A DNA stretch of 64,000 nt from Deroplatys truncata (Eukaryota; Arthropoda; Insecta; Mantodea; Mantidae): positions 61,084,001-61,148,000 of the forward strand of contig CM060989.1 in NCBI GenBank assembly GCA_030765065.1, written 5' to 3'. Each line of letters opens with the position of its first letter. Position 1 is the stretch's first letter. The notes beneath the pieces were generated by a model. The model did not search any database and was not told where the DNA came from. It worked only from the letters and a program-made list of their open reading frames with translations. Shown here in pieces: positions 1,906 through 42,795 of the stretch. The position numbers were made by a program, and so were the translations under genes.

Positions 1906-2105
1906 TAACCTAACCAATTATACTACTTTCATTACACTTCACATTAATTTCTCATTTAATTTTAATTCACTTCACTGCATTAATTTAACCATTTTAATTA
2001 ACTTCAATTATTTTATCACTTAATTTTAATTTCACAGTAATTATTTTAAAATTAATTCTCCTATATATCACTTCACTTTTCCCTATCAATATTACAATAC
2101 TTAAC
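1906..2105. other. AT-rich spacer
   Basis: Low-complexity AT-rich DNA with recurring TTAATTTTAATT and ACTTCA words; no gene. It begins with a short CTTAACCTAACC motif that is too brief to be telomeric. Confidence 0.6.
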
Positions 2106-3700: not shown

Positions 3701-3744
3701 CTGCAGTCGACTGTGAGTGGTCGACATCAAGGGAGTTGTGTCGT

Positions 3745-3948
3745 GACGTGTCTAGCCACTCCAATTGTCTCGACTACAGGCAATCCGTTTGTGTCGACCA
3801 GTCACTCCCTTTGTCACTTGTCCAGTCACATCCTGTGTCTCGTGTCTAGTCAATCCATGTAGGCCAGACACTCCCTTTGTTTCATGTCCAGCCAAGCCTT
3901 TGTGTCGGCCAGACACTTGCTTTGTCTCGATTCCAGTCACTCCCTTTG
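3745..3948 (+). repeat. Diverged left edge of the 24-bp minisatellite
   Basis: Units with the CACTCC(C/A)TTTGTGTC pattern are present but heavily mutated (GTCTAGCCACTCCAATTG, GCCAGACACTCCCTTTGT). They are clearly related to the main array but much less uniform, as expected at an array edge where homogenisation is weak. Confidence 0.8.
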
Positions 3949-4249
3949 TGTCTAAAATTGAAATTGAGTTATATTTATGGATTCTCTTTAACTACTGTGG
4001 TCCTTGGCGTCCCATTCTATATTGGGCGTGAAAAACCGGTAATTTTGCTTACAGACCTCTTTATCAGGCTTGAGGTTCTTTTACGTGATGTAAATCCACG
4101 ACACGGAACCACCGACTTTACTTCCCTTCCGAAGAAAGTCGTGCTAAGGTCTTCTACGCCCGAAAAAATCCACCTTTCTCCGCCGGGTTTGAAACCACGA
4201 CCTCGGGAACTAGAGGCTAGAATGGTAACCACTACGCTACAGGGGACGA
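3949..4249 (-). mobile_element. tRNA-derived SINE (family A), copy 1, inserted in the array
   Basis: On the minus strand the element begins CGTCCCCTGTAGCGTAGTGG. A polymerase III A box (TAGCGTAGTGGTTA) lies at 4226-4239 and a B box (GGTTTCAAACC) within 4183-4196, spaced as in a tRNA. The remaining ~200 bases are the SINE body, ending in an AT-rich tail that contains TTTATGGATTCTCTTTAAC on the plus strand. A ~75-80% similar copy lies at 44038-44330 and a 3' fragment at 56176-56219. TCCCTTTG occurs on both sides (3941-3948 and 4250-4257), but every array unit carries this word, so the target duplication is ambiguous. Confidence 0.85.
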
Positions 4250-5884
4250 TCCCTTTGAGTTGAGTCCAGTCACTGCCTTGTTGTGAACCAGTCGCTCCCT
4301 TTGTCTCGTCTCCAGTCACTTCCTAGGTGTCGGCCTGTCATTCCCTTTGTCTCGACTCCAGTCACTCCCTTGCTCTCGTGTCCAGTTACACCCTTTGTAT
4401 TGGCCAGTCACTCCCTTGATTTCGCCTCCAGTCACTCTCTTGGTCTCGACTCCAGTCACTCTCTTGGTCTCGACTCCAGTCACTCCACTGGTCTCTCCTC
4501 CAGTCACTCCCTTGGTCTCGCCTCCAGTCACTCCCTTTGTCTCGCCTCCTCTCACTCCCTTTGTCTCGCCTCCAGTCACTCCCTTTGTCTCGTATCCAGT
4601 CACTCCCTTTGTCTCGCCTCCTGTCACTCCCTTGGTCTCGTATCCAGTCACTCCCTTGGTCTCTCCTCCAGTCACTCCCTTGGTGTCGCTACAGTCACTC
4701 CCTTTGTCTCGTCACTCCCTTGGTCTCGTATCCAGTCACTCCATTGATATCGCTTCCAGTCACACTCTATGTCTAGTCTCCAGTCACTCCCTTTGTCTAG
4801 CCTCCAGTCACTCCCTTGGTATCGACTCCAGTCACTCCCTTGGTCTCGTATCCAGTCACTCCCATGGTCACGCGTCCAGTCACTCCCTTGGTCCCGTATC
4901 CAGTTGGTCCCGTATCCAGTCACTCCCTTGGTCTAACCTCCAGTCACTCCCTTGGTCTAACCTCCGGTCACTCCCTTGGTCTCGACTCCAGTCACTCCCT
5001 TGGTCTCGTATCCAATCACTTCCTTGGTCTCGCCACCAGTCACTCCCTTGGTCTCGACTCCAGTCACTCCCTTGGTATCGACTCCAGTCACTCCCTTGGT
5101 CTCGTATCCAGTCACTCCCTTTGTCTCGCCTCCAGTCACTCCCTTGGTCTCGTCAGCAGTCACTCCCTTGGTCTCGCCTCCAGTCACTCTCTTGGTATCG
5201 CTTCCTGCCACTCCCTTGGTCTCGCCTCCAGTAACTCCCTTGGTATCGACTCAAGTCACTCCCTCGGTCTCGTATCCAGTCACTCCCCTGGTCTCGCGTC
5301 CAGTCACTCCCTTGGTCTCTCCTCCAGTCACTCCCTTGGTGTCGCTCCAGTCACTCCCTTTGTCTCGACTCCATTCACTTCCTTGGTCCCGAAACAATCC
5401 ACTCCCTTGGTCTCGCCTCCAGTCACTCCCTTTGTCTCGCCTCCTGTCAATACCTTGGTCTCGCGTCCAGTCACTCCCTTGGTCTCGACTCCATTCACTC
5501 CCTTAGTCTCGAAACCAGTCACTCCCTTGGTCTCGCCTCCTGTCACTCCCTTGGTATCGACTCCAGTCACTCCCTTGGTCTCGCTTCCAGTAACTCCCTT
5601 GGTATTGACACCAGTCACTCCCTTGGTATCGACTCCAGTCACTCCCTTGGTCTCGTCTCCAGTCACTCACTTGGTCTCGTCTCCAGTCACTCCCTTGCTC
5701 TCGTCTCCAGTCACTCCCTTGGTCTCGTATCCAGTCACTCCCTTGGTCTCGTATCCAGTCACTCCCTTGGTCTACTCCCCAGTCACTCCCTTGGTCTCTC
5801 CTCCAGTCACTCCCTTGGTGTCGCACCAGTCACTCCCTTTGTCTCGACTCCATTCACTCCCTTGGTCTGGAAACCAGTCTCTCC
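4250..5884 (+). repeat. 24-bp minisatellite, CT-rich orientation, segment 1
   Basis: Head-to-tail 24-bp units with core GTCACTCCCTTGGTCTCG and a variable remainder, most often CCTCCA. On the plus strand the units are CT-rich. The first ~200 bases are more diverged. In translation the frames read as octapeptide repeats (VTPLVSPP, SHSLGLAS, LQSLPWSR), which accounts for the long ORFs here. The segment ends abruptly at a LINE fragment near 5885. Confidence 0.97.
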
Positions 5885-6505
5885 CATTGAGGGAGCAATG
5901 CAGAAGAGCTAACTAAATATTGCCGATTAAGCCAATCGTAAAATATCGCGAAAGACGGGTGGTCAGGTAAGCTGTAGAGTCGACAGGCATAGCTGCAAAA
6001 AAGCATCTCACGCTTGAAGGACAGCCGAGGCTCTGGTGCTTTAGCATATAGGCACGGTACAGGGCTGGTTGGAAAGGCCCCTTTAGCGACTCGTATGCAC
6101 CATGGTGAATGGCATTCAGTCGACGTAATACAGACGGACGCGCTGACGAATAGACAATACACCCGTAATCAAGCTTGGATCGGACTAAGAGCGATAAAGA
6201 TGTAGAAGGACGGTCCGTTCAGCTCCCCAGGATGTGCCACTTATAGCACGTAAAAGATTAAGAGAACGGCCACACATGATTTTAAAAAGGAAATGTGAGA
6301 AATCCAGCTCAGCTTTCGATCAAACATCAACCCCAAAATTTCACCTCGCCTGGAAATGGAAGGACCTCCAACCCAGGATGGAGAGAAGGCGAAGGGAAAG
6401 CCTTCCGGCGCAAGAAATTGATGCAGACGGATTTCTCGGGGGAGAACTTAAAAGCCCTTGGCGTTACTCCAGGCGTAGAGACGGTCGATACAGCTCTGGA
6501 GACTA
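5885..6505 (-). mobile_element. LINE fragment (jockey/I type), RT thumb region, embedded in the array
   Basis: On the minus strand, motifs typical of the region downstream of the RT active site of jockey/I-type LINEs occur in order: LQSCIDRLYAWSNAKGF, then FSPEKSVCINF, FWGLMFDRKLSW, SWGAERTVLLHLYRSLI, RSKLDYGCIVYSSARPSVL, KGAFPTSPVPCLY and YACRLYSLPDHPSFAIF. The reading frame shifts at least twice (near 6450 and near 6080-6100), so it is a pseudogene. RT catalytic motifs, EN and 3' UTR are absent. Both sides join 24-bp units directly, with no clear target duplication. Orientation and family type match the 5' LINE half at 39621-42585; the two may be parts of one insertion split by array growth. 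Confidence 0.85.
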
Positions 6506-9500
6506 ACTTGGTATCGTTTAGTCACTCCCTTGGTCTCGCCTTCAGATAATCTCTTGACTCGCCTCCAGTCACTCCCTTTACCTCGCCTCCAATCACTCCC
6601 CTGATCTCGCCTCCAGTTACTCCCTTTCTCTCCTTCAGTCACTCCCTTGTTATCGACTCCAGTCTCTCCCTTGGTATCGACTCCAGTCACTGCCTTGGTC
6701 TCCTCTCCAGTCACTCCCTTGGTCTACTCCCCAGTCACTCCCTTGGTCTCGCCTCCAGTCACTCCCTTGGTCTCGTATCCGGTCACTCCCTTGGTCTCGC
6801 CTCCAGTCACTCCCTTGGTCTCGTATCCGGTCACTCCCTTGGTCTCGCCTCCAGTCACTCCCTTGGTCTCGTAACCAGCCACTTCCTTGGTCTCGTCTCC
6901 AGTCACTCCCTTGGTTTCAAAACCAGTCACTCCCTTGGTATAGCCTCCCGTCAATACCCTTGTTCTCGCGTCCAGTCACTCCCTTGGTCTCGCGTCGTCA
7001 CTACCTTGGTCTCGAAACCAGTCAGTCCCTTGGTCTCGCCTCCTGTCACTCCCATGGTATCGACTCCAGTCACTCCCTTGGTCTAGCGTCCAGTCACTCC
7101 TTTGGTCTCGTCACCAGTCACTCCCTTGGTCTCGCGTCCAGTCACTCCCTTAGTCTCGCGTCCAGTCACTCCCTTGGTCTCTCCTCCAGTCACTCCCTTG
7201 GTCTCGTCATCAGTCACTCCCTTGGTCTCGCGTTCAGTCACTCCCTTGGTCTCGCCTCCAGTCACTCCCTTGGTATCGACTCCAGTCACTCCTTTGGTCT
7301 CGCTTCCAGTCACTCCCTTGGTATTGACAGCAGTCACTCCCTTGGTCTCGCATCCAGTCACTCCCTTTGTCTCGCCTCCTGTCACTCCCTTGGTCTCGTA
7401 TCCAGTCACTTCCTTGGTCTCTCCTCCAGTCACTCCCTTGGTGTCGCTCCAGTCACTCCCTTTGTCTCGTCTCCAGTCACTCCCTTTATCTCGTCTCGTC
7501 ACTCCCTTGGTCTCGCGTCCAGCCACTCCCTTGGTCTCTCCTCCAGTCACTCCCTTGGTCTCGAAACCAGCCACTCCCTTGGGTCACCTCCAGTCACTAC
7601 CTTGGTCTCTGCTCCAGTCACTCCCTTGGTCTCGAAACCAGTCACTACCTTGCTTACGTCTCCAGTCACTCCCTTGGTCTCGCCTCCAGTCACTCCCTTG
7701 GTCTCGCCTCCAGTCACTCCCTTGGTCCCGTCTCCAGTCACTCCCTTGGTCTCGTATCCAGTCACTCCCTTGGTCCTGCCTCCAGTCACTCCCTTGGTCT
7801 CGTCACCAGCCACTCCCTTGGTCTCTTCACCAGCCACTCCCTTGGTCTCGTCACCAGCCACTCCCTTGGTCTCTTCACCAGTCACTCCCTTGGTCTCGTC
7901 TCTAGTCACTCCCTTGGTCTCGAATCCAGTCACTCCCATGGTCTCGAAACCAGTCACTCCCTTTGTCTCGCCTCCTGTCAATACCCTTGGTCTCTCGTCC
8001 AGTCACTCCCTTGGTCTCGCGTTCAGTCACTCCCTTGGTCTCGCCTCCAGTCACTCCCTTGGTCTCGCCTCCAGTCACTCAATTGGTCTCGTCTCCAGTC
8101 CACCCCTTGGTCTCGTCTCCAGTCACTCCCTAGGTCTCGCCTCCAGTCACTCCCTTGGTCTCGCCTCCAGTCACTCTATTGTTCTCGCTTCCTGTCACTC
8201 CCTTGGTCTTGCCTCCAGTTACTCCCTTGGTCTCGCCTCCAGTCACTCCCTTGGTCTCGCCTCCAGTCACTTAATTGGTCTCGCGTGCAGTCACTCACTT
8301 GGTCTCGCGTCCAGTCACTCCCTTGGTCTCTCCTCCAGTCACTCCCTTGGTCTCGTCTACAGTCACTCCCTTGGTCTTGTATCCAGTCACCCCTTGGTCT
8401 CGCGTCCAGTCACTCTTTTCTCGTCTCCAGTCACTCCTTTGGTCTCGCTTCCAGTCACACCCTTGGTATTGACACCAGTCACTCCCGTGGTCTCGCCTCC
8501 AGTCACTCCCTTGGTCTCGCCTCCAGTCACTCCCTTGGTGTCGCTCCAGTCACTCCTTTTGTCTCGTCTCCAACACTCCCTCGGTCTCGCCTCCAGTCAC
8601 TCCCTTGGTCTCGCGTCCAGTCACTCCCTTGGTCTCTCCTCCAGTCACTCCTTTGGTGTCGCTCCAGTCACTCCCTTGGTCTCCTCTCCAGTCACTCCCT
8701 TGGTCTCGCGTCCAGTCACTCCCTTGTCGCTCCAGTCACTCCCTTTGTCTCGTCTCCAGTCACTCCCTTTGTCTCGTCTCCAGACACTCCCTGGGTATCG
8801 ACTCCAGTCACTCCCTTGGTATCGACTCCAGTCACTCCCTTGGTTTCGCCTCCAGTCACTCCCTCGGTCTCGTCTCCATTCACTCCCTTGGTCTCGCCTC
8901 CTGTCACTCCCTTTGTCTCGCCTCTTGTCACTCATTTGTCTCGCCTCCAGTCACTCCCTTTGTATCGCCTCCAGTCACTCCCTTTGTCTCGCTTCCTGTC
9001 ACTCCCTTGGTCTCGCTTCCTGTCACTCCCTTGGTCTCGCCTCCTGTCACTCCCTTGGTCCCGTCTCCAGTCACTCCCTTGATCTCCTCTCCAGTCACTC
9101 CCTTGGCCTCGTCTCCAGTCACTCCCTTGGTCTCGCCTCCGGTCACTCCCTTGGACTCCTCTCCAGTCACTCCCTTGGTCTCGTCTCCAGTCACTCCCTT
9201 GGTCTCGCCTCCTGTCACTCCCTTTGTCTCGCATCCAGTAACTCCCTTTGTCTCGCCTCCTGTCACTCCCTTGGTCTCGCTTGCAGTCACTCCCTTCGAC
9301 TCGCCTCCAATCACTCTCTTCGTCTCGCCTCCTGTCACTCCCTTGGTCTCACCTCAAGTCACTCCCTTGGTCTCGACTCCAGTCACTCCTTTTGTCTCGC
9401 CTCCAGTCATTCCCTTGGTCTCGCCTCCAGTCACTCCCTTGGTCTCGTCTCCAGTCACTCCCTTGGTCTCGCTTCCAGTCACTCCCTTGGTCTCGCCTCC

Positions 9501-10440
9501 AGTCACTCCCTTTGCCTCGCCTCCAGTCACTCCCTTTGTCTCGCCACCTTTCACTCCCTTTGTCTCGCCACCTGTCACTCCCTTTGTCTCGCCTCCAGTC
9601 GCTCTCTTGGTCTCGCTTGCAGTCACTCCCTTGGTCTCGCCTCCAATCACTCTTGGTCTCGCCTTCAGTCACTCCCTTGGTCTCGTCTCCAGTCACTTCC
9701 TTTGTCTCGCCTCCAGTCACTCTCTTTGGCTCGCCTCCTGCCACTCCCTAGGTCTCGCCTCAAGTCACTCTCTTGGTCTCGACTCCAGTCACTCCCTTGG
9801 TCACGACTCCAGTCACTCCTTTGGTATCGACCCGTCACTCCCTTGGTCTCGCTCCCAGTCACATTGTTGGTCTCGCCTCCAGTCACTCCCTTGGTCTCGC
9901 CTCCTGTCACTCCCTTTGTCTCGCCTCCTGTCACTCCCTTTGTCTCTCCTCCAGTCACCCTTTGTCTCGCCTCCTGTCACTCCCATGGACTCGCCTCCAG
10001 TCACTACCTTGGTCTCGCCTCCAGTCATTCCCTTGGTCTCGTCTCCAGTCGCTCCCTCGGTCTCGCCTCCAGTCATTCCCTTGGTCTCGCCTACAGTCAC
10101 TCCCTTGGTCTCGATTCCAGTCTATCCCTTGGTATCGACTCCAGTCACTCCCTTGTTCTCGTATCCAGTCACTCCCTTGATCTCGCTTCCAGTCACTCCA
10201 TTTGTCTTGCGTACAGTCACTCCCTTGGTCTTGTCTCCAGTCATTCCCTTGTTCTCTCCAGTCACTCCCTTGGTCTCGCTTGCAGTCACTCCCTTTGTCT
10301 CGCCTCCTGCACTCCCTTTGTCTCGCCTCCAGTCACGCCCTTTGTCTCGCCTCTAGTCACTCCCGTTGTCTCGCCTCCAGTCACTCCCTTGATCTCTCCA
10401 GTCACTCCCTTGGTCTCGTCTCCAGTCACTCCCTTTGTCT
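6506..10440 (+). repeat. 24-bp minisatellite, CT-rich orientation, segment 2
   Basis: About 164 units continuing the plus-strand orientation of 4250-5884. Single-unit variants recur: TCGCCTCCA, TCGTCTCCA, TCGACTCCA, TCGTATCCA, TCGCGTCCA, TCGTCACCA and TCGAAACCA. A 1,183-codon ORF (6960-10511) arises because the period is a multiple of three; small indels make the frames switch among the three octapeptides, which argues against protein selection. The segment ends at the polarity switch near 10440. Confidence 0.97.
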
Positions 10441-12196
10441 CCTGTGACTGGAGTCGATACCAAGGGAGTGACTGGAGTCGATACCCAGGGACTGACTGGA
10501 GACGAGACTAAGGGAGTGACTGGACGCGAGACCCAGGGGTGACTGGAGGTGAGACCAAGGGAGTGACTGGTTTCGAGACCAAGGGCGTGACTGAAGACGA
10601 GAGCAAGTGAGTAACTTGAGAGGAGACCAAGGGAGTGACTGGAAACGCGACCAAGGGAGTGACTGGAGCGACACCAGGATAGTGACTGAGACGAGACCAA
10701 GGGAGTGACTGGAGCGACATCAAGGGCGTTACTGGAGACGAGACCAAGGGAGTGACTGGTGACGAGACCAAGGGAGTGACTGGTGACGAGACCAAGGGAG
10801 TGACTGGAGGCGAGACCAAGGGAGTGACTGGAGTCGATACCCAGGGAGTGACTGGAGCGACATCAAGGGAATGACTGGACACGAGACCACGGGAGTGACT
10901 GGAGGCGAGACCAAGGGAGTGATGGACGCGAGACCAAGGGAGTGACCGGAGACGAGACCAAGGGAGTGACTGGAGCGACACCAAGGAAGTGACTGGAGGC
11001 GAGACCAAGGGAGTAACTGGAGACGAGACAAAGGGACTGACTGGAGCGACACCAAGGGAGTGACTAAAGGCGAGACCAAGGGACTGACTGGAGGCGAGAC
11101 CAAGGGAGTGAATGGTATCAATACCAAGGGAGTGACTGGAAGCGAGACCAAGGGAGTGACTGGAGACGAGAAAAGGGAGTGACTGGACGCGAGACCAAGG
11201 GAGTGACTGGATAAAAGACCAAGGCAGTGACTGTAGACGAGACCAAGGGAGTACTGGAGGAGAGACCAAGGGAGTGACTGGAAACGAGACCAAGGGAGTG
11301 ACTGGTGACGAAACCAAGGGAGTGACTGGACGCGAGACCAAGGGAGCGACTGGAGTCGATACCATGGGAGTGACAGGAGGCGAGACCAAGGGAGTGACTG
11401 GACGCGAGAACAAGGGTATAAACAGGAGGCGAGACAAAGGGAGTGACTGGAGGCTATACCAAGGGAGTGACTGGTTTTGAGACCAAGGGAGTGACTGGAG
11501 ACGAGACCAAGGGAGTGGCTGGTTACGAGACCAAGGGAGTGACGAGAGGAGACCAAGGGAGTGACTGGTGACGAGACCAAGGGAGTGACCGGTGACGAGA
11601 CCAAGGGAGTGACGACGCGAGACCAAGGGAGTGACTGAACGCGAGACCAAGAGAGTGACTGGAGACGAGACCGAGGGAGTGCCTGGAGTCGATGCCAAAG
11701 GAGTGACTAGAGTCGATACCCAGGGAGTGACTAGAGACGAGACAAAGGGAGTGACTAGAGCGACACCAAGGGAGTTACTGGAGGAGAGACCAATGGAATG
11801 ACAGGAGGCGAGACCAAGGAAGCGACTGGACGCGAGACCAAGGAAGTGACTGGAGAAGAGACCAAGGGAGTGACTGGACGCGAGACCAAGGGAGTGACTG
11901 GAGACGAGACCGAGGGAGTGACTGGAGACGAGACCAAGGGAGTGACTGGACGCGAGACCAAGGAAGTGATTGGAGACGAGACCAAGGGAGTGACTGGAGG
12001 CGAAACCAAGGGAGTGACTGGAGGCGAGACCAAGGAAGTGACTGGAGTCGATACCAAAAGAGTGACTGGAGTCGATAACCAGGGAGTGACTGGAGACGAG
12101 ACAAAGGGAGTGACTGGAGCGACACCAAGGGAGATACTGGAGACGAGATCAAGGGAGTGACTGGAGCTACACCAAGGGAGTGACTGGAGGAGACAC

Positions 12197-15100
12197 CAAG
12201 GGACGGACTGGACACGAGACCAAGGGAGTGACTGGACACGAGACCAAGGGAGTGACTGGACACGATACCAAGGGAGTGACTGGAGGCAAGAACACGGGAG
12301 TGACAGGAAGCGAGACCAAGGGAGTGACTGGTGTCAATACCAAGGGAGTGACTGGTGTCAATACCAAGGGAGTGACAGGAACCGGGACCAAGGGAGTGAC
12401 TGGAATCGATACCAAGGGAGTGACAGGAGGCGAGACCAAGGGGGTGACTGGTTTCGAGACCAACGGAGTGACTGGAGGAGAGACTAAAGGAGTGACTGGA
12501 GTCGATACACAGGGAGTGACTGGATGCGAGAACAAGGGTATTGACAGGAGGCGAGACAAAGGGAGTGACTGGAGGCTATACCAAGGGAGTGACTGATTTT
12601 GAGACTAAGGGAGTGACTGGAGGCGATACAAAGGGAGTGAGTGGAAGCGAGACCAAGGGAGTGACTGGAGGCGAGACCAAGGGAGTGACTGGATGCGAGA
12701 CCAAGGGAGTGACTGGAGGCGAGACCAAGAGAGTGACTGGAGACGAGACCGAGGAAGTGACTGGACACGAGACCAAGGGAGTGACTGGAAACGAGACCGA
12801 GGAAGTGACTGGAGGCGAGACCAAGGGAGTGACTGGAGTCGATACCCAGGGAGTGACTGGAGACGAGACCGAGGGAGTGACTGGAGACGAGACCAAGGGA
12901 GTGACTGGTGACGAGACCAAGGGAGTGACTGGAGTCGATACCCAGGGAGTGACTGGAGACGAGACCAAGGGAGTGACTGGAGTCGATACCATGGGAGTGA
13001 CAGGAGGCGAGACCAAGGGAGTGACTGGTGACGAGACCAAGGGATTGACTGGAGGCTATACCAAGGGAGTGACTGGTTTTGAGACCAAGGGAGTGACTGG
13101 AGAGGAGACCAAGGGAGTGACTGGAGAGGAGACTAAGGGAGTGACTGGAGTCGATATCAAGGGAGAGACTGGAGTCGATAACAAGGGAGTGACTGGCTTC
13201 AATACCAAGGGAGTGACTGGAAGCGAGACCCCGGGAGTGACTGGAGTCGATATCATGGGAGTGACTGGAGACGATACCATGGGAGTGACTGGAGTCGATA
13301 ACAAGGGAGTGACTGGAGAGGAGGCCAAGGGAGTGACTGTTGTCGAGACCAAGGGAGTGACTGGACGAGAGACCAAGGGAGTGACTAGAGACGAGACAAA
13401 GGGAGTGACTGGAGCGACACCAAGGGAGTGACTGGAGGAGAGACCAAGGGAGTGACTGGATACGAGACCAAGGGAGTGACTGTAGTCGATACCATGGGAG
13501 TGACTGGAGACGATACCATGGGAGTGACTGGAGAGGAGACCAAGGGAGTGACTGGTGACGAGACCAAGGGAGTGACTGGACGCTAGACCAAGGGAGTGAC
13601 TGGAGTCGATACCATGGGAGTGACAGGAGGCGAGACCAAGGGAGTGACTGGACGCGAGACCAAGGGAGTGACTGGATGCGAGAACGAGGGTATTGACTGG
13701 AGGCTATACCAAGAGTGTGACTGGTTTTGAGACCAAGGGAGTGACTGGAGGCGAGACCAAGAGAGTGACTGGGGAGTAGAGCAAGGGAGTGACTGGATAC
13801 GAGACCAAGGGAGTGACTGGAGAGGAGACCAACGGAGTGACTGGAGTCGATACCAAGGGAGTGACCGGAGTCGATACCAAGGGAGAGACTGGAGTCGATA
13901 ACAAGAGTGACTGGTTTCAATACCGAGGGAGTGACTGGAAGCGAGACCAAGGGAGTGACTGGAATCGATACCAAGGGAGTGACAGGAGGCGAGACAAAGG
14001 GAGTGACTGGAGACGAGACCGAGGGAGTGACTGGAGGCGAGAACAAGGGAGTGATTGGAGGCGAGACCAAGGGAGTGACTGGAGGCGAGACCAAGGGAGT
14101 GACTGGAGGCGAGACCAAGGGACGGACTGGACACGAGACCAAGGGAGTGACTGGACACGAGACCAAGGGAGTGACTGGACACGATACCAAGGGAGTGACT
14201 GGAGGCAAGAACACGGGAGTGACAGGAAGCGAGACCAAGGGAGTGACTGGTGTCAATACCAAGGGAGTGACAGGAACCGGGACCAAGGGAGTGACTGGAA
14301 TCGATACCAAGGGAGTGACAGGAGGCGAGACCAAGGGGGTGACTGGTTTCGAGACCAACGGAGTGACTGGAGGAGAGACTAAAGGAGTGACTGGAGTCGA
14401 TACACAGGGAGTGACTGGATGCGAGAACAAGGGTATTGACAGGAGGCGAGACAAAGGGAGTGACTGGAGGCTATACCAAGGGAGTGACTGATTTTGAGAC
14501 TAAGGGAGTGACTGGAGGCGATACAAAGGGAGTGAGTGGAAGCGAGACCAAGGGAGTGACTGGAGGCGAGACCAAGGGAGTGACTGGATGCGAGACCAAG
14601 GGAGTGACTGGAGGCGAGACCAAGAGAGTGACTGGAGACGAGACCGAGGAAGTGACTGGACACGAGACCAAGGGAGTGACTGGAAACGAGACCGAGGAAG
14701 TGACTGGAGGCGAGACCAAGGGAGTGACTGGAGTCGATACCCAGGGAGTGACTGGAGACGAGACCGAGGGAGTGACTGGAGACGAGACCAAGGGAGTGAC
14801 TGGTGACAAGACCAAGGGAGTGACTGGAGTCGATACCCAGGGAGTGACTGGAGACGAGACCAAGGGAGTGACTGGAGTCGATACCATGGGAGTGACAGGA
14901 GGCGAGACCAAGGGAGTGACTGGTGACGAGACCAAGGGATTGACTGGAGGCTATACCAAGGGAGTGACTGGTTTTGAGACCAAGGGAGTGACTGGAGAGG
15001 AGACCAAGGGAGTGACTGGAGAGGAGACTAAGGGAGTGACTGGAGTCGATATCAAGGGAGAGACTGGAGTCGATAACAAGGGAGTGACTGGCTTCAATAC

Positions 15101-16034
15101 CAAGGGAGTGACTGGAAGCGAGACCCCGGGAGTGACTGGAGTCGATATCATGGGAGTGACTGGAGACGATACCATGGGAGTGACTGGAGTCGATAACAAG
15201 GGAGTGACTGGAGAGGAGGCCAAGGGAGTGACTGTTGTCGAGACCAAGGGAGTGACTGGACGAGAGACCAAGGGAGTGACTAGAGACGAGACAAAGGGAG
15301 TGACTGGAGCGACACCAAGGGAGTGACTGGAGGAGAGACCAAGGGAGTGACTGGATACGAGACCAAGGGAGTGACTGTAGTCGATACCATGGGAGTGACT
15401 GGAGACGATACCATGGGAGTGACTGGAGAGGAGACCAAGGGAGTGACTGGTGACGAGACCAAGGGAGTGACTGGACGCTAGACCAAGGGAGTGACTGGAG
15501 TCGATACCATGGGAGTGACAGGAGGCGAGACCAAGGGAGTGACTGGACGCGAGACCAAGGGAGTGACTGGATGCGAGAACGAGGGTATTGACAGGAGGCG
15601 AGACAAAGGGAGTGACAGGAGGCTATACCAAGAGTGTGACTGGTTTTGAGACCAAGGGAGTGACTGGAGGCGAGACCAAGAGAGTGACTGGGGAGTAGAG
15701 CAAGGGAGTGACTGGATACGAGACCAAGGGAGTGACTGGAGAGGAGACCAACGGAGTGACTGGAGTCGATACCAAGGGAGTGACCGGAGTCGATACCAAG
15801 GGAGAGACTGGAGTCGATAACAAGAGTGACTGGTTTCAATACCGAGGGAGTGACTGGAAGCGAGACCAAGGGAGTGACTGGAATCGATACCAAGGGAGTG
15901 ACAGGAGGCGAGACAAAGGGAGTGACTGGAGACGAAACCGAGGGAGTGACTGGAGGCGAGAACAAGGGAGTGATTGGAGGCGAGACCAAGGGAGTGACTG
16001 GAGGCGAGACCAAGGGAGTGACTGGAGGCGAGAC
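12197..16034. repeat. Tandem pair of 1.92-kb segmental duplications inside the array
   Basis: 12197-14115 and 14116-16034 are direct copies of a segment close to 80 units long. The word GGACGGACTG appears at 12201 and 14120 (offset 1,919). The interval 12541-13431 matches 14436-15326 (offset 1,895) with one amino-acid difference over 296 codons in the shared frame. The offset returns to 1,919 by 13704/15623. The 24-base changes in offset show single-unit loss and gain after the duplication. Confidence 0.9.
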
Positions 16035-16390
16035 CAAGGGAGTGACTGGAGTCGATACCAAGGGAGTGACTGGAGTCGATACCCAGGGAGTGACGGGAGA
16101 CGAGACAAAGGGAGTGACTGGAGCGACAATAAGGGAGTGACTGGACGCGAGACCAAGGGAGTGACCGGAGACGAGACCAAGGGAGTGACAGGAGCGACAC
16201 CAAGGGAGTGACTGGAGGAGAGACCAAGGGAGTGACAGGAGGCGAGACAAAGGGAGTGACTGGAGACGAGACCGAGGGAGTGACCGGAGTCGATACCAAA
16301 GTAGTGAGTGGAGTCGATACCAAGGGAGTGACAGGAGGCGAGACCAAGGGAGTGACTACAAGGGAGTGACAGGAAGCGAGACAAAGGGAG

Positions 16391-27989: not shown

Positions 27990-30900
27990 GAGTGACTTGA
28001 GACGACACCAAGGGAGTGACTGGAGGCAAGACCAAGAGAGTGATTGGAGGCGAGTCCAAGGGAGTGACTGCAAGCGAGACCAAGAGAGTGACTGGAGGCG
28101 TGAAAAAGGGAGTGACTGGAGACGAGACCAAGGGAGTGACAGGAGGCGAGACAAAGGGAGTGACAGGAGACGAGACCAAGGGAGTGACTGGAGGCGAGAC
28201 CAAGAGAGTGACTGGAGGCGAGACCAAGAGAGTGACTGGAGGCGAGAACAACAATGTGACTGGAGGCGAGACCAAGAGAGTGACTGCAGGCGAGACCAAG
28301 GGAGTGACTGCAAGCGAGACCAAGGGAGTGACAGGACGCGAGACAAAGGGAGTGACTGGAGGCTAGACAAAGGGAGTGACAGGAGTCGAGAAAAAGGGAG
28401 TGAACGGAAGATAGACCAAGGATGTGACTGGAGACGAGACCAAGGGAGTGACTGGAGAGGAGTCCAAGGGGGTGACCGGAGGCGAGAAAAAGGGAGTGAC
28501 TGCAGACGAGACCAAGGGAGTGACTGGAGACGGGACCAATGGAGTGACAGGAGGCGAGACAACGGGAGTGACTGGAGGCGAGACAAAGGGCGTGACTGGA
28601 GGCGAGAAAAAGGGAGTGGCTTGAGGCGAGACCAAGAGAGTGACTGGTTTCGAGACCAAGGGAGTGACTGCAAGCGAGACCAAGGGAGTGACTGGAGGCG
28701 AGACCAAGGGAGTGACTGGAGGCGAAACTAAGAGACTGACAGCAAGCGAGACTAAGGGAGTGACTGGAGAGAAAAACAAGGGAGTGACTGGAGACAAGAC
28801 CAAGGGAGTGACTGTAGACGAGACCAAGGGAGTGACCGGAGTCGATACCAAGGGAGTGACTGGAGTCGATACCAAGGGAGTGACAGGAGGCGAGACCAAG
28901 GGAGTGACTGTTGCGAGAACAACGGAGCGACTGGAGGCGAGACCTAGGGAGTGCCTGGATGCGAAACCAAGGTAGCGATTGGAGGCGACACAAAGGGAGT
29001 GACTGTACGCGAGACCAAGTGAGTGACTGGAGGCGTGACCAAGGGAGTGACTGGAGGCGAGACCATGGGAGTGACAGGAGGCGAGACAAAGGGAGTTTCT
29101 GGAGGCGACACCAAGAGAGTGACTGAAGGCGAGACCAAGAGAGTGACTGGAGGCGAGACAAAGGGGGTGACAGGAGGCGAGACAGAGGGATTGACTGGAG
29201 GCGTGGTCAAGGGAGTGACTGGAGGCTTGATCAAGGGAGTGACTGGAGACGAGACCAACGGAGTGACTGGAGAGGAGACCAAGGGAGTGTCTGCATACGA
29301 GACCAAGGGAGTGAGGAGTCGAAACCAAGGGAAAGACTGAAGTCGAAACCAAGGGAGGACTGGAGGCGAGACAAAGGGAGTGCCTGGAGCGACAAGGAGA
29401 TGCCTGGAGGTGATAACAAGGGAGTGACTGGAGGCGACAGCAAGGGAATGACTGGAGACGAGACCAAGGGAGTGACTGGAGGCGAGACCAAGGGAGTGAC
29501 TGGAGACGAGACTAAGTGAGTGAGTGGAGACGAGACAAAGGGGGTAATTAAAGGCGAGACCAAGGGAGTGACAGGAGACTAGACAAAGGGAGTGACTAGT
29601 GTCAATAGCAAGGGAGTGACTGGAGGCGAGACCAAGAGAGTGACTGGTTTCGAGACCAAGGGAGTGACTGCAAGCGATACCAAGGGAGTGACTGGAGGCG
29701 AAACTAAGAGAGTGACTGGAGACAAGTCCAAGGGAGTGACTGGAGACGAGACCAAGGGAGTGACAGGAGGCGAGACCAAGGGAGTGACTGCTGCGAGAAC
29801 AAGGGAGCGACTGGAGGCGAGACCTAGGGAGTGCCTGGAAGCGAAACCAAGGGAGCGATTGGAGGCGACACAAAGGGAGTCACTGTACGCGAGACCAAGT
29901 GAGTGACTGGAAGCGTGACCAAGGGAGTGACTGGAGGGGAGACCATGGGAGTGACAGGAGGCGAGACAATGGGAGTTTCTGGAGGCGACACCAAGAGAGT
30001 GACTGAAGGCGAGACTAAGAGAGTGACTGGAGGCGAGACAGAGGGATTGACTGGAGGCGTGGTCTAGGGAGTGACTGGAGGCGTGATCAAGGGACTGACT
30101 GAGATGAGACCAAGGGAGTGACTGGAGTCGAAACCAAGTCAAAGACTGAAGTCGAAACCAAGGGAGGACTGGAGGCGAGACAAAGGGAGTGCCTGGAGCG
30201 ACACCGAGGTGACTGGAGGTGATACCAAGGGAGTGACTGTAGGCGAGAGCAAGGGAATGACTGGAGACGAGACCAAGGGAGTGACTGGAGACGGGACCAA
30301 GGGAGTGACTGGAGACGAGACTAAGTGAGTGAGTGGTGACGAGACAAAGGGGGTAATTAAAGGCGAGACCAAGGGAGTGACAGGAAACTAGACAAAGGGA
30401 GTGACTAGTGTCAATAGCAAGGGAGTGACTGGAGTCGAGACCAAGAGTGTAACTGCAAGGGAGTGACTGGAGGCGAGAACCAGGGAGTGACTGGAGGCGA
30501 GAACCAGGGAGTGACTGGAGGCGAGAACCAGGGAGTGACCGGACGCGAGACCAAGTGTGTGACTGGAGGCGAGACCAAGGGAGTGACTGGAAGCGAGATC
30601 AAGGGAGTGACTGGAAGTGAGATCAGGGAGTGACTGGATACGAGAACAAGGGAGTGACTGGAGGCGAGACCAAGGGAGTGACTGCAAGCGAGACCAAGGG
30701 AGTGACAGGAAGCGAGACCAAGGGAGTGACAGGAAGCGAGACAAAGGGAGTGAGTGAAAGCTAGACAAAGGGAGTGACAGGAGGCGAGAAAAAGGATGTG
30801 ACTGGAGAGGTGTCCAAGGGAGTGACTGGAGACGAGACCAAGGGAGTGACTGGAGACGAGACCAAGGGAGTCACTGGAGACGAGACCAAGGGAGTGACTG

Positions 30901-33713
30901 GTGACGGGACCAAGGGAGTGACAGGAGGCGAGACAACGGGAGTAACTGGAGGCGAGACAAAGGGCGTGACTGGAGGCGAGACAAAGGGCGTGACTGGAGG
31001 CGAGACAAAGGGAGTGACTGGAGGCGAGACCAAGAGAGTGACTGGTTTCGAGACCAAGGGAGTGACTGGAAGCGAGACCAACGGAGTGACTGGAGGCGAG
31101 ACCAAGGGAATGACTGGAGGCGAGACAAAAGGAGTGACTGGAAGCGAGACCAAGGGAGTGACTGGAAGCGAGACAAACGGAGTGACTGGAGGCGAGACCA
31201 AGGGAATGACTGGAGGCGAGACAAAAGGAGTGACTGGAGGCGTGGCCAAGGGAGTGACTGGGGGTGAGTTCAAGGGAGTGACTGGAGTCGATACCAAGGG
31301 AGTGACTGGAGTCGATACCAAGGCAGTGACTGGAGTCGAGACCAAGGGAGTGACTTGAGGTGAGACCAAGGGAGTGACAGGAGGCGAGCCAAAGGGAGTG
31401 ACTGGAGAGACAAAGGGAATGACTGGAGACGAGACCAAGGGAGTGACTGGAGGCGAGACGAAGAGAGTGATTGGAGGCGAGTCGAAGGGATTGACTGCAA
31501 GCTAGACCAAGAGAGTGACTGGAGGCGAGACCAAGAGAGTGACAGGAGGCGAGCCAAAGGGAGTGACTGGAGGCGAGACAACGGGAGTGACTGGAGGCGA
31601 GACCAAGAGAGTGATTGGAGGCGAGACCAAGGGAGTGACTGCCGGCGAGACAAAGGGAGTTACTGGAGGAGACAAAGGGAGTGACAGGAGGCGAGACAAA
31701 GGGAGTGACAGGAGGCGAGACCAAGGGAGTGACAGGAGGCGAGACCAAGGGAGCGACAGGAGGCGAGCCAAAGGGAGTGACTGGAGGCGAGACAAAGGGA
31801 GTGACTGGAGGCGAGACCAAGAGAGTGATTGGAGGCGAGACCAAGAGAGCGATTGGAGGCGAGACCAAGGGAGTGACTGCAGGCGTGACAAAGGGAGTTA
31901 CTGGAGGCGAGACAAAGGGAGTGACAGGAGATGAGACAAAGGGAGTGACAGGAGGCGAGACCAAGGGAGTGACTGGAGAGGAGTCCAAGGGAGTGACCGG
32001 AGGCGAGACCAAGGTAGTGACCGGAGACGAGGCCAAGGGAGTGACTGGAGAGGAGATCAAGGGAGTGACTGGGGACGGGACCAAGGGAGTGACAGGAGGC
32101 GAGACAAAGGGAGTGACAGGAGGCGAGACAAAGGGAGTGACTGGAGGCGAGACCAAGGGAGTGACTGGTTTCGAGACCAAGGGAGTGACTGGTTTCGAGA
32201 CCAAGGGAGTGACTGCAAGCGAGACCAAGGGAGTGACTGGAGTCGAGACCAAGGGAGTGACTGGAGGCGGGACCAAGAGAGTGACTGCAAGCGAGACCAA
32301 GGGAGTGACTGGAGACGAAACCAAGGGAGTGACTGGAGGTGCGCCAAAGGTAGTGACTGGAGGCGAACAAAGTGAGTGACTTTAGACGAGACCAAGGGAG
32401 TGACTGGAGGCAAGACCAAGAGAGTGATTGGAGGCGAGTCCAAGGGAGTGACTGCAAGCGAGACCAAGAGAGTGACTGCCGGCGAGACAAAGGGAGTTAC
32501 TGGAGGAGACAAAGGGAGTGACAGGAGGCGACACAAAGGGAGTGACAGGAGGCGAGACCAAGGGAGTGACTGGATAGGAGTCCAAGGGAGTGACCGGAGG
32601 CGAGACCAAGGTAGTGACCGGAGACGAGGCCAAGGGAGTGACAGGAGAGGAGATCAAGGGAGTGACTGGAGACGGGACCAAGGGAGTGACAGGAGGCGAG
32701 ACAAAGGGAGTGACTGGAGGCGAGACAAAGGGCGTGACTGGAGGCGAGACAAAGGGAGTGACTGGAGGCGAGACCAAGGGAGTGTCTGGTTTCGAGACCA
32801 AGGGAGTGTCTGGTTTCGAGACCAAGGGAGTGACTGCAAGCGAGACCAAGGGAGTGACTGGAGAGGAGACCAAGGGAGTGACTGGAGAGGAGACCAAGGG
32901 AGTGACTGGAGACGAGACCAAGGGAGTGACTGGAGTTGATACCAAGGGAGTGACAGGAGGCGAGACCAAGGGAGTGACTGGAGGCGAGATAAAGGAAGTG
33001 ACAGGAGGGGAGACAACGGGAGTTACAGGAGGAGATCAATGGAGTGACTGGAGACGGGACCAAGGGAGTGACTGGAGGCGAGACCAAGGGAGTCACTGGA
33101 TACGAGACCAAGGGGGTGACTAGTTTCGAGACCAAGGGAGTGAATGGAGGCGAGACCAAGGGAGTGAATGGATGCGATTCCAAGGGAGTGACCGGAGGCG
33201 AGACCAAGGGAGCGAATGGAGAGGAGACCAAGGGAGTGACTGGAAGCGTGACCAAGGGAGTGATTGGATACGAGACCAAGGCAGTGACTGGATACGAGAC
33301 CAAGGCAGTGACTGGATTCGATACCAAGGGAGTGACTGGAGTCGATACCAAGGGAGTGACTGGAGGCGAGACTAAGAGAGTGACTGGATGCGAGACCAAG
33401 GGAGTGACTGCAAGCGAGACCAAGGGAGTGACTGGAGACGGATCCAAGGGAGTGACTGGAGACGAGACAATGAGAGTGACAGGAGGCGAGACAAAGGGAG
33501 TGACAGGAGTTGAGACCAAGGGATAGACTGGAGGCGAGATAAAGGGAGTGACTGGACGCGAGACCAAGGGAGTGCCTGGACGCGAGACCAAGGGAGTGCC
33601 TGGACGCGAGATCAAGGGAGTGACTGGAGTCGAGACCAAGGGAGTGACTGGAGTCGAGACCAAGGGAGTGACTGGAGGCGAGACCAAGAGAGTAAATGGA
33701 AGCGATACCAGGG
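27990..33713. repeat. Higher-order repeat copy A (5.72 kb)
   Basis: This block is repeated directly downstream as 33714-39157. Matching landmarks keep a constant offset of 5,724 from 28016/33740 to 30139/35863, then 5,437 from 31270/36707 to 33526/38963. Translated frames across the two copies are identical over hundreds of codons apart from isolated changes, so the duplication is recent relative to unit divergence. Confidence 0.9.
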
Positions 33714-36700
33714 GAGTGACTTGAGACGACACCAAGGGAGTGACTGGAGGCAAGACCAAGAGAGTGATTGGAGGCGAGTCCAAGGGAGTGACTGCAAGCG
33801 AGACCAAGAGAGTGACTGGAGGCGTGAAAAAGGGAGTGACTGGAGACGAGACCAAGGGAGTGACAGGAGGCGAGACAAAGGGAGTGACAGGAGACGAGAC
33901 CAAGGGAGTGACTGGAGGCGAGACCAAGAGAGTGACTGGAGGCGAGACCAAGAGAGTGACTGGAGGCGAGAACAACAATGTGACTGGAGGCGAGACCAAG
34001 AGAGTGACTGCAGGCGAGACCAAGGGAGTGACTGCAAGCGAGACCAAGGGAGTGACAGGACGCGAGACAAAGGGAGTGACTGGAGGCTAGACAAAGGGAG
34101 TGACAGGAGTCGAGAAAAAGGGAGTGAACGGAAGATAGACCAAGGATGTGACTGGAGACGAGACCAAGGGAGTGACTGGAGAGGAGTCCAAGGGGGTGAC
34201 CGGAGGCGAGAAAAAGGGAGTGACTGCAGACGAGACCAAGGGAGTGACTGGAGACGGGACCAATGGAGTGACAGGAGGCGAGACAACGGGAGTGACTGGA
34301 GGCGAGACAAAGGGCGTGACTGGAGGCGAGAAAAAGGGAGTGGCTTGAGGCGAGACCAAGAGAGTGACTGGTTTCGAGACCAAGGGAGTGACTGCAAGCG
34401 AGACCAAGGGAGTGACTGGAGGCGAGACCAAGGGAGTGACTGGAGGCGAAACTAAGAGACTGACAGCAAGCGAGACTAAGGGAGTGACTGGAGAGAAAAA
34501 CAAGGGAGTGACTGGAGACAAGACCAAGGGAGTGACTGTAGACGAGACCAAGGGAGTGACCGGAGTCGATACCAAGGGAGTGACTGGAGTCGATACCAAG
34601 GGAGTGACAGGAGGCGAGACCAAGGGAGTGACTGTTGCGAGAACAACGGAGCGACTGGAGGCGAGACCTAGGGAGTGCCTGGATGCGAAACCAAGGTAGC
34701 GATTGGAGGCGACACAAAGGGAGTGACTGTACGCGAGACCAAGTGAGTGACTGGAGGCGTGACCAAGGGAGTGACTGGAGGCGAGACCATGGGAGTGACA
34801 GGAGGCGAGACAAAGGGAGTTTCTGGAGGCGACACCAAGAGAGTGACTGAAGGCGAGACCAAGAGAGTGACTGGAGGCGAGACAAAGGGGGTGACAGGAG
34901 GCGAGACAGAGGGATTGACTGGAGGCGTGGTCAAGGGAGTGACTGGAGGCTTGATCAAGGGAGTGACTGGAGACGAGACCAACGGAGTGACTGGAGAGGA
35001 GACCAAGGGAGTGTCTGCATACGAGACCAAGGGAGTGAGGAGTCGAAACCAAGGGAAAGACTGAAGTCGAAACCAAGGGAGGACTGGAGGCGAGACAAAG
35101 GGAGTGCCTGGAGCGACAAGGAGGTGCCTGGAGGTGATAACAAGGGAGTGACTGGAGGCGACAGCAAGGGAATGACTGGAGACGAGACCAAGGGAGTGAC
35201 TGGAGGCGAGACCAAGGGAGTGACTGGAGACGAGACTAAGTGAGTGAGTGGAGACGAGACAAAGGGGGTAATTAAAGGCGAGACCAAGGGAGTGACAGGA
35301 GACTAGACAAAGGGAGTGACTAGTGTCAATAGCAAGGGAGTGACTGGAGGCGAGACCAAGAGAGTGACTGGTTTCGAGACCAAGGGAGTGACTGCAAGCG
35401 ATACCAAGGGAGTGACTGGAGGCGAAACTAAGAGAGTGACTGGAGACAAGTCCAAGGGAGTGACTGGAGACGAGACCAAGGGAGTGACAGGAGGCGAGAC
35501 CAAGGGAGTGACTGCTGCGAGAACAAGGGAGCGACTGGAGGCGAGACCTAGGGAGTGCCTGGAAGCGAAACCAAGGGAGCGATTGGAGGCGACACAAAGG
35601 GAGTCACTGTACGCGAGACCAAGTGAGTGACTGGAAGCGTGACCAAGGGAGTGACTGGAGGGGAGACCATGGGAGTGACAGGAGGCGAGACAATGGGAGT
35701 TTCTGGAGGCGACACCAAGAGAGTGACTGAAGGCGAGACTAAGAGAGTGACTGGAGGCGAGACAGAGGGATTGACTGGAGGCGTGGTCTAGGGAGTGACT
35801 GGAGGCGTGATCAAGGGACTGACTGAGATGAGACCAAGGGAGTGACTGGAGTCGAAACCAAGTCAAAGACTGAAGTCGAAACCAAGGGAGGACTGGAGGC
35901 GAGACAAAGGGAGTGCCTGGAGCGACACCGAGGTGACTGGAGGTGATACCAAGGGAGTGACTGTAGGCGAGAGCAAGGGAATGACTGGAGACGAGACCAA
36001 GGGAGTGACTGGAGACGGGACCAAGGGAGTGACTGGAGACGAGACTAAGTGAGTGAGTGGTGACGAGACAAAGGGGGTAATTAAAGGCGAGACCAAGGGA
36101 GTGACAGGAAACTAGACAAAGGGAGTGACTAGTGTCAATAGCAAGGGAGTGACTGGAGTCGAGACCAAGAGTGTAACTGCAAGGGAGTGACTGGAGGCGA
36201 GAACCAGGGAGTGACTGGAGGCGAGAACCAGGGAGTGACTGGAGGCGAGAACCAGGGAGTGACCGGACGCGAGACCAAGTGTGTGACTGGAGGCGAGACC
36301 AAGGGAGTGACTGGTGACGGGACCAAGGGAGTGACAGGAGGCGAGACAACGGGAGTAACTGGAGGCGAGACAAAGGGCGTGACTGGAGGCGAGACAAAGG
36401 GCGTGACTGGAGGCGAGACAAAGGGCGTGACTGGAGGCGAGACAAAGGGAGTGACTGGAGGCGAGACCAAGAGAGTGACTGGTTTCGAGACCAAGGGAGT
36501 GACTGGAAGCGAGACCAACGGAGTGACTGGAGGCGAGACCAAGGGAATGACTGGAGGCGAGACAAAAGGAGTGACTGGAAGCGAGACCAAGGGAGTGACT
36601 GGAAGCGAGACAAACGGAGTGACTGGAGGCGAGACCAAGGGAATGACTGGAGGCGAGACAAAAGGAGTGACTGGAGGCGTGGCCAAGGGAGTGACTGGGG

Positions 36701-39157
36701 GTGAGTTCAAGGGAGTGACTGGAGTCGATACCAAGGGAGTGACTGGAGTCGATACCAAGGCAGTGACTGGAGTCGAGACCAAGGGAGTGACTTGAGGTGA
36801 GACCAAGGGAGTGACAGGAGGCGAGCCAAAGGGAGTGACTGGAGAGACAAAGGGAATGACTGGAGACGAGACCAAGGGAGTGACTGGAGGCGAGACGAAG
36901 AGAGTGATTGGAGGCGAGTCGAAGGGATTGACTGCAAGCTAGACCAAGAGAGTGACTGGAGGCGAGACCAAGAGAGTGACAGGAGGCGAGCCAAAGGGAG
37001 TGACTGGAGGCGAGACAACGGGAGTGACTGGAGGCGAGACCAAGAGAGTGATTGGAGGCGAGACCAAGGGAGTGACTGCCGGCGAGACAAAGGGAGTTAC
37101 TGGAGGAGACAAAGGGAGTGACAGGAGGCGAGACAAAGGGAGTGACAGGAGGCGAGACCAAGGGAGTGACAGGAGGCGAGACCAAGGGAGCGACAGGAGG
37201 CGAGCCAAAGGGAGTGACTGGAGGCGAGACAAAGGGAGTGACTGGAGGCGAGACCAAGAGAGTGATTGGAGGCGAGACCAAGAGAGCGATTGGAGGCGAG
37301 ACCAAGGGAGTGACTGCAGGCGTGACAAAGGGAGTTACTGGAGGCGAGACAAAGGGAGTGACAGGAGATGAGACAAAGGGAGTGACAGGAGGCGAGACCA
37401 AGGGAGTGACTGGAGAGGAGTCCAAGGGAGTGACCGGAGGCGAGACCAAGGTAGTGACCGGAGACGAGGCCAAGGGAGTGACTGGAGAGGAGATCAAGGG
37501 AGTGACTGGGGACGGGACCAAGGGAGTGACAGGAGGCGAGACAAAGGGAGTGACAGGAGGCGAGACAAAGGGAGTGACTGGAGGCGAGACCAAGGGAGTG
37601 ACTGGTTTCGAGACCAAGGGAGTGACTGGTTTCGAGACCAAGGGAGTGACTGCAAGCGAGACCAAGGGAGTGACTGGAGTCGAGACCAAGGGAGTGACTG
37701 GAGGCGGGACCAAGAGAGTGACTGCAAGCGAGACCAAGGGAGTGACTGGAGACGAAACCAAGGGAGTGACTGGAGGTGCGCCAAAGGTAGTGACTGGAGG
37801 CGAACAAAGTGAGTGACTTTAGACGAGACCAAGGGAGTGACTGGAGGCAAGACCAAGAGAGTGATTGGAGGCGAGTCCAAGGGAGTGACTGCAAGCGAGA
37901 CCAAGAGAGTGACTGCCGGCGAGACAAAGGGAGTTACTGGAGGAGACAAAGGGAGTGACAGGAGGCGACACAAAGGGAGTGACAGGAGGCGAGACCAAGG
38001 GAGTGACTGGATAGGAGTCCAAGGGAGTGACCGGAGGCGAGACCAAGGTAGTGACCGGAGACGAGGCCAAGGGAGTGACAGGAGAGGAGATCAAGGGAGT
38101 GACTGGAGACGGGACCAAGGGAGTGACAGGAGGCGAGACAAAGGGAGTGACTGGAGGCGAGACAAAGGGCGTGACTGGAGGCGAGACAAAGGGAGTGACT
38201 GGAGGCGAGACCAAGGGAGTGTCTGGTTTCGAGACCAAGGGAGTGTCTGGTTTCGAGACCAAGGGAGTGACTGCAAGCGAGACCAAGGGAGTGACTGGAG
38301 AGGAGACCAAGGGAGTGACTGGAGAGGAGACCAAGGGAGTGACTGGAGACGAGACCAAGGGAGTGACTGGAGTTGATACCAAGGGAGTGACAGGAGGCGA
38401 GACCAAGGGAGTGACTGGAGGCGAGATAAAGGAAGTGACAGGAGGGGAGACAACGGGAGTTACAGGAGGAGATCAATGGAGTGACTGGAGACGGGACCAA
38501 GGGAGTGACTGGAGGCGAGACCAAGGGAGTCACTGGATACGAGACCAAGGGGGTGACTAGTTTCGAGACCAAGGGAGTGAATGGAGGCGAGACCAAGGGA
38601 GTGAATGGATGCGATTCCAAGGGAGTGACCGGAGGCGAGACCAAGGGAGCGAATGGAGAGGAGACCAAGGGAGTGACTGGAAGCGTGACCAAGGGAGTGA
38701 TTGGATACGAGACCAAGGCAGTGACTGGATACGAGACCAAGGCAGTGACTGGATTCGATACCAAGGGAGTGACTGGAGTCGATACCAAGGGAGTGACTGG
38801 AGGCGAGACTAAGAGAGTGACTGGATGCGAGACCAAGGGAGTGACTGCAAGCGAGACCAAGGGAGTGACTGGAGACGGATCCAAGGGAGTGACTGGAGAC
38901 GAGACAATGAGAGTGACAGGAGGCGAGACAAAGGGAGTGACAGGAGTTGAGACCAAGGGATAGACTGGAGGCGAGATAAAGGGAGTGACTGGACGCGAGA
39001 CCAAGGGAGTGCCTGGACGCGAGACCAAGGGAGTGCCTGGACGCGAGATCAAGGGAGTGACTGGAGTCGAGACCAAGGGAGTGACTGGAGTCGAGACCAA
39101 GGGAGTGACTGGAGGCGAGACCAAGAGAGTAAATGGAAGCGATACCAGGGGAGTGAC
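33714..39157. repeat. Higher-order repeat copy B (5.44 kb)
   Basis: Direct tandem copy of 27990-33713. It lacks a net 287 bases (close to 12 units) around 36290-36420, where copy A has extra units at about 30585-30900; one extra unit has been gained nearby. The A/B junction near 33713 joins GCGATACCAGGGGAGTGAC to TTGAGACGACACC, whereas the second occurrence of the first word (39139-39157) continues into ordinary units. Confidence 0.9.
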
Positions 39158-39620
39158 TGGAGTGGAGACCAAGGGAGTGACTTGAAGCGATACCAAGGGA
39201 TGACTGGATACGAGACAAAGGGAGAGACTGGAGGCTAGATCAAGGGAGTGACTGGAGGTCAGACCAAGGGAGGGACTGATAGCGAAACCTAGGGAGTGAC
39301 TGGAGACGGTACAAACGGAGTGAGTGGAGACGAGATCAAGGGAGTGACTGGTGACGAGACCAAGGAAGTGACTGGAGGCGGTACCAAGGGAGTGACTGGA
39401 GACGAGACCAAGGGAGTGCCTGGAGACGAGACAAAGGGAGTGACTGGAGGCGAGACAAAGCGAGTGACTGGAGGCGAGACCAGGGGAGTGACTGGTGGCG
39501 AGACCAAGGGAGTGACTGGAGGAGAGACCAAGGGAGTGACTGGAGGCGAGACCAAGGAAAAGACAGGAGGCGAGACAGAGGTTGACTGGAGGGGAGACAA
39601 AGGGAGTGACTGGAGGCAGC
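39158..39620 (-). repeat. Diverged right edge of the minisatellite
   Basis: Units become irregular (CAGACCAAGGGAGGGACTG, GCGAAACCTAGGGAG, GGAGGCAGCACCTAG) and the last recognisable unit ends at about 39614-39620, where LINE coding sequence begins on the opposite strand. Confidence 0.8.
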
Positions 39621-40766: not shown

Positions 40767-41109
40767 GAATAAAAGGGATAAACTTCCTACTTAGAAGGGC
40801 GGCTCAAAATAACCTTCTGCTTAACCTTGGCGCTCGAGCACTTGGTATGGAGTTGGTGAGGCTCCATAGGCTCTTCGAAGGGAGGGCCCACGCGCTCAGT
40901 ACCAGAAACCGATTCAAGCGCCGAGAATCGGTGCTGGGTGGCAATGGTGACGGGTGCCGCTGAACCGGCTTGTCCCAGGAGGGTCCTTAGGACCAGCTTT
41001 AGAGCGCTTGATAAGTGTGCCAGAGATGGACGGCCGGATGGTCCTTGCGGTCAAGGCAGTCATGGTCCAGGTCTGAGTTTCGGCATCCTACCGGGGAACT
41101 GGCGAGGCA

Positions 41110-42690: not shown

Positions 42691-42795
42691 GTCTCTCTCT
42701 CTCAAAACAATATGAAGCATTCAACACATGATACAAGACAGTCAACATTTTACTAGTTGGAATGGAAGAAGTGATGTGATATAATTAACATGTGA

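Follow-up and report, generated by a model that had tools for sequence, protein, structure and literature searches.

Satellite arrays scattered near genes are already known, and their mode of movement has seldom been read directly. The TCAST satellites of Tribolium castaneum are scattered outside heterochromatin near genes as independent insertions, with extrachromosomal circles proposed as the vehicle (PMC5844308, PMC3411249). Foldback elements provide a second model, as their inverted repeats contain tandem repeats that can seed satellites; the foldback element Tetris produces target duplications of 8–10 bp (PMC4079207). Lathyrus has satellites derived from retrotransposon-internal tandem repeats (PMC7004042), and chromosomal DNA can be captured at double-strand breaks in vertebrate genomes (PMC2671141). 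Here we describe a 64,000-nucleotide stretch of the genome of the mantis Deroplatys truncata (GCA_030765065.1, contig CM060989.1, positions 61,084,001–61,148,000; hereafter, the window), in which a long run of a 24-bp unit lies near the gene Sap130. This run is one array of a scattered 24-bp satellite (minisatellite) family, a new family of a kind already known, with unusually readable insertion sites.

Tandem Repeats Finder (TRF) located 24-bp arrays at window positions 4288–5868, 6520–10441 and 10444–39617. Wrap-around decomposition resolved these three blocks into 68, 164 and 1,223 whole units, a total of 1,455 (34,726 bp) between 4265 and 39613, with 88–90% identity to the consensus. Blocks A (4265–5882) and B (6504–10441) are on the minus strand and read CCAGTCACTCCC on the plus strand, while block C (10444–39613) is on the plus strand and reads GTGACTGGAGGCGAGACCAAGGGA. 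The degenerate outer edge of the array (3745–3952, minus strand) has eight units with 74% identity to their own consensus, which reads CCAGTCAC on the plus strand. Thus, the large minisatellite of about 1,450 units next to Sap130 announced in a preliminary description of this DNA is present. The 24-bp repeat reported there as a single array from 3745 to 39620 is real as well, but it is not continuous: the run is interrupted by a short interspersed nuclear element (SINE)-like repeat (3953–4250) and by a 621-bp retroelement piece (5883–6503), and it flips strand at 10442.

The family extends well beyond the window, which lies on chromosome C15. A 35-mer of the unit, allowing up to three mismatches, had 470 + 236 matches genome-wide (window included) and 0 + 0 for the reversed pattern, which therefore excludes chance as the source of the matches. 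With a 601-bp query, at least 129 further matches were recovered beyond the window, grouped in 14 clusters, and the 35-mer pattern added three. With matches merged within 30 kb, the family has at least 17 other clusters on six chromosomes (six on C15, four each on C13 and C16, and one each on C5, C11 and C6). Among the matches listed, 6 of the 17 other clusters lie on C15, a chromosome with 3.1% of the genome's length; the probability of this is about 9e-6, the query itself being from C15. DNA was sampled, partly or wholly, from 13 of the 17. The cluster consensus sequences are identical or differ at one to three positions, and identity to the local consensus ranges from 92% (sampled segment L046) down to 75% (L041, L042), a spread of array ages. 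The window array is the most uniform among the large arrays examined. At unit position 11, G is the commonest base in the window and in L046, whereas the other ten segments sampled outside the window mostly have A and the eight-unit window edge has T. Head-to-tail tandem copies and recurrence at several places with local variants identify the repeat as a satellite or minisatellite, rather than the one uniform minisatellite at one place first proposed. The C15:73.56 array runs for about 19 kb on one strand, and the C13:90.16 array extends beyond the end of the sampled stretch. A 183-bp tandem repeat (L039 2–364, two copies in the stretch) directly adjoins the C15:108.23 array.

The clearest evidence for how the family spreads comes from arrays inserted in multicopy transposons, whose other copies serve as empty-site controls. 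In L046, a 17-unit array interrupts such a transposon and approximately 26 bp of the target are lost, all of which are kept in 11 of 11 homologous copies (L057–L067). None of the target is duplicated relative to these 11 array-free copies. A second insertion of about 20 units (L071) lacks roughly 20–27 bp of target relative to three of three copies, a less exact comparison because these are about 70–73% alike. Target loss is thus seen at both insertions whose empty site could be read, and neither has a target-site duplication. By comparison, a full-length retroelement in the C15:108.24 array is flanked by a 15-bp duplication; therefore, genuine retroelement insertions are recognizable in this material. 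Target loss without target-site duplication in L046 and L071 thus favors DNA-break capture over transposition. Other junctions carry short sequences common to both partners: AGTCA at the transposon–array junction of L072, where the rest of the transposon is absent from the other side, and AGGC shared by the array and a retroelement at the right border of the window array (39614).

The strand flip in the window raises the alternative that the arrays are foldback transposons. At least 6 of the 18 clusters, window included, have a strand switch (window, C15:108.23, C15:54.57, C13:38.01, C13:63.56 and C13:90.16), a minimum because some of the clusters were read in part. Furthermore, the switches in the window (10442–10443) and in L039 are predicted to fold into long hairpins (−38.2 kcal/mol and z of −9.3 for the window; z of −7.9 for L039), compared with z of −0.5 and −0.3 for array interiors. 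The similarity to Tetris and Galileo lies in internal tandem repeats that are oppositely oriented and able to seed satellite arrays (PMC4079207 for Tetris). However, the switches occur here in both polarities, several clusters are on one strand only (L043/L044, L046, L071–L074), and no common terminus was seen when the borders of eight clusters were inspected by eye, without a systematic comparison. The target loss at L046 and L071 also contrasts with the 8–10 bp duplications of Tetris, and conserved termini and target duplications were not found where they could be tested. The C15:73.56 array is flanked on either side by the 7-base sequence AGTTCCG, a possible but unproven duplication. No inverted repeats of at least 40 bp were found within block B alone. 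Taken together, we regard a foldback transposon as quite unlikely.

How an array grows once in place can be read from the window. Neighboring units in block C are 82.2% identical, compared with about 81% at other lags; adjacent units are therefore barely more alike than distant ones, and units are not renewed one by one. Instead, block C contains a tandem duplication of about 5.5 kb (28031–39136, plus strand), in which 28031–30562 and 30964–33699 recur at offsets of 5724 and 5437 with one mismatch in 2,532 bp and none in 2,736 bp, respectively (1 in 5,268 compared bases). Another near-identical tandem block duplication has its source at 12380–14106 (plus strand), with one mismatch in 1,287 bp at offset 1895 (12380–13666) and one in 373 bp at offset 1919 (13734–14106). 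Stretches with so few mismatches were selected for high identity. If the assembly is right, the array has recently grown by blocks rather than by slippage of units. The 2,736 bp without a mismatch within an otherwise diverged array could also mark a mis-joined repeat graph, so that assembly error would account for part of the array length and above all for the 5.5-kb duplication. Yet the copies differ when compared more widely (97.2% identity, with gaps, over 3.3 kb between 30817–34115 and 36254–39551), and the two parts of the duplication have different offsets, 5724 in the first and 5437 in the second. An assembly artifact is, on balance, improbable. The same near-identical blocks bear on the copy-number polymorphism anticipated in the preliminary description: seen in a single assembly, they support copy-number change at the window array only indirectly.

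We favor, with moderate confidence, a model in which the family spreads by the joining of array pieces into chromosome breaks, followed by growth through block copying with occasional inverted joins. Array pieces, free or copied, would be inserted at breaks by end joining, with circles and copying both retained as alternative routes to capture. Once established, an array would enlarge through unequal exchange or break-induced copying of 2–6 kb blocks, and inverted joins would occur now and then. A related process is the one by which double-strand breaks capture chromosomal DNA, which likewise leaves extra DNA at the break without signs of transposition; it differs in that the published account concerns vertebrate genomes and that the captured DNA here is a satellite (PMC2671141). 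The family also resembles TCAST in the dispersal of satellite units near genes but is distinguished by its 24-bp unit, by arrays of up to tens of kb and by two insertions that lost target sequence instead of entering through homology or in the manner of a transposon (PMC5844308, PMC3411249).

Several observations weigh against this model. No donor stands out for the L046 insertion, the window array included, as the best candidate (88.9%) falls within a continuum of 855 long alignments. Three sampled copies did not show the empty site of the 19-kb C15:73.56 array. The founding event of the window array was not seen and no empty site was found for it; the two clean insertions lie elsewhere. Last, blocks B and C have longer open reading frames than expected, described below, which the model does not predict and which we cannot explain beyond a stop-free consensus and block duplication.

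A more far-reaching possibility, which we put forward tentatively and consider doubtful, is that of a mobile satellite without a transposase. The repeat would act as a recurrent break filler, mostly on its own chromosome, and hairpin-prone inverted joins would lead to breaks and repair, and these to block growth and retroelement capture in a self-feeding cycle. For its part, the window array is sizeable yet not particularly unusual for an animal genome rich in transposons. What gives the family wider interest is that the host-transposon copies, as empty-site controls, make it possible to test concretely whether satellites spread through large genomes by break capture.

The retroelement sequence in and beside the window array comes from one abundant non-long terminal repeat (non-LTR) family. 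The 621-bp piece (5883–6503, minus strand) is an internal fragment from the C-terminal reverse transcriptase (RT) region, with 83.4% identity to L040 2524–3143, and is flanked by the 24-bp array on either side. The RVT_1 domain of its relative L025 is recognized in the upstream part (E 3.8e-14) and, below the cut-off, in the part covering 5883–6503 (E 5.1e-4). At the opposite end of the array, the 5′ part of an element, including the endonuclease region and sequence upstream (39614–42187, minus strand), is 88.1% and 84.7% identical to L040 4022–5387 and 5503–6675. This piece is cut at the array border, and its 5′ end reaches about 42580, judged by eye against L003. The endonuclease stretch weakly matches Exo_endo_phos_2 (E 0.0028, below the cut-off). 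Outside the array and adjoining it lies a further, 5′-truncated copy of the family, represented by its 3′ end (42802–43612, minus strand; 83.5% identity to L040 1216–2029).

The two pieces could be the halves of one retroelement copy in which the array grew, with about 880 bp of the RT gene giving way to 33 kb of repeat. Consistent with this, both are on the same strand and in the right order, and the parts of L040 matching them are separated by 879 bp. However, their nearest copies differ, pointing to two different elements when the best 40 copies per piece were scored from 5,362 and 6,066 first-look candidates. The RT piece is 89.8–91.7% identical to L025–L038, whose endonuclease parts are 81.7–84.9% identical to the window; the endonuclease piece is 85.1–88.2% identical to L010–L023, whose RT parts are 67.0–87.5% identical to the window. 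No copy is common to the two best-40 lists. Moreover, the 24-bp array does not end at the RT piece but resumes beyond it. The RT part of 4 of the 14 copies nearest the window endonuclease piece (L010–L023) is only 67–68% identical to the window, which suggests that this family has chimeric subfamilies. The subfamily comparison is thus not decisive, because it covers a small number of copies, some of them chimeric. We judge an origin within a single copy to be rather unlikely. The family does recall the Lathyrus satellites, in that arrays adjoin retroelement sequence and occur both short and long, but the L040 copy, when scanned, contained no 24-bp unit array, leaving an origin from that element without support (PMC7004042).

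A different relationship would hold if the retroelement family targeted the 24-bp repeat, a behavior toward repeats known from some elements of the R1 clade. The full-length copy between 15-bp duplications (GATATAAGGGAGTGA) in the C15:108.24 array fits such targeting. Yet the repeat was present at 1 of 15 three-prime flanks, and that copy had been chosen because it lies in an array. This largely refutes array-specific insertion, which we consider highly improbable.

Because 24 bp amount to eight codons, the unit could also be, or descend from, a coding minisatellite that specifies an octapeptide rich in serine, threonine and proline. Open reading frames reach 1,742 amino acids, and those of blocks B and C exceed most unit-order shuffles (the observed length was reached in 1 and 5 of 300 shuffles, respectively, compared with 114 of 300 for block A). 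Column shuffles (0 of 40 and 4 of 200 reaching the observed length) are an invalid null, as they scatter multi-base gaps, and the unit-order shuffle was used in their place. On the CCAGTCAC strand, none of the three frames of the consensus contains a stop, and long open frames therefore follow automatically. Furthermore, 137 of 146 length-changed units (109 + 20 + 8) shift the frame and nine keep it, and the stops in block C are evenly distributed over the three frames of that strand (61, 68 and 61). We rejected a coding repeat on the frame-shifting length changes; as far as the sequence can tell, a coding role for the array is unlikely, and a coding minisatellite or its relic is barely credible. 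The array probably has no sequence-specific function and is at most a passive, unstable block near Sap130.

The unit had been described as unrecognized among known satellites. Consistent with this, a full-text literature search with four unit strings returned eight papers with titles on unrelated subjects (polymorphisms of human DNA-repair genes, for instance), with Repbase and Dfam outside the comparison. Literature on 24-bp satellites, dispersal by circles, end-joining and filler DNA, and inverted arrays provided related work, with no title naming this family.

The last exon of Sap130 (51–206, plus strand) matches the Pfam domain SAP130_C (E 3.4e-8; 33.4 bits versus a cut-off of 27) and ends with a stop codon at about 204–206. 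For this gene, the array is mainly a caution: it is old and patched, and regulation of Sap130 by it is without evidence so far. The surroundings, first described as euchromatin-like, hold several other retroelement pieces and are not plain gene-rich DNA. Retroelement remains at 49319–49939 and 59513–60916, for example, have an RNase H domain (E 1.2e-10) and an endonuclease domain (E 1.9e-12), respectively. Between Sap130 and the array, the GC-rich interval 2100–3720 has many CAGCCC-like words and weak periodicities of 20, 14 and 19 bp, and is possibly an older, decayed repeat. A 94-bp AT-rich sequence (3293–3386) recurs with 93.6% identity inside the C15:73.56 array (L044 3588–3679) and may be a short mobile element. 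The SINE-like repeat in the array edge (3953–4250, no strand assigned) has a transfer RNA-like B box recognized by eye and two relatives in L041 (79–81% identity), in addition to a second window copy at 44031–44330. A degenerate tandem repeat of about 45–48 bp spans 42600–44600 (TRF 43922–44025 and 44360–44467) and contains a truncated retroelement copy and a SINE-like repeat.

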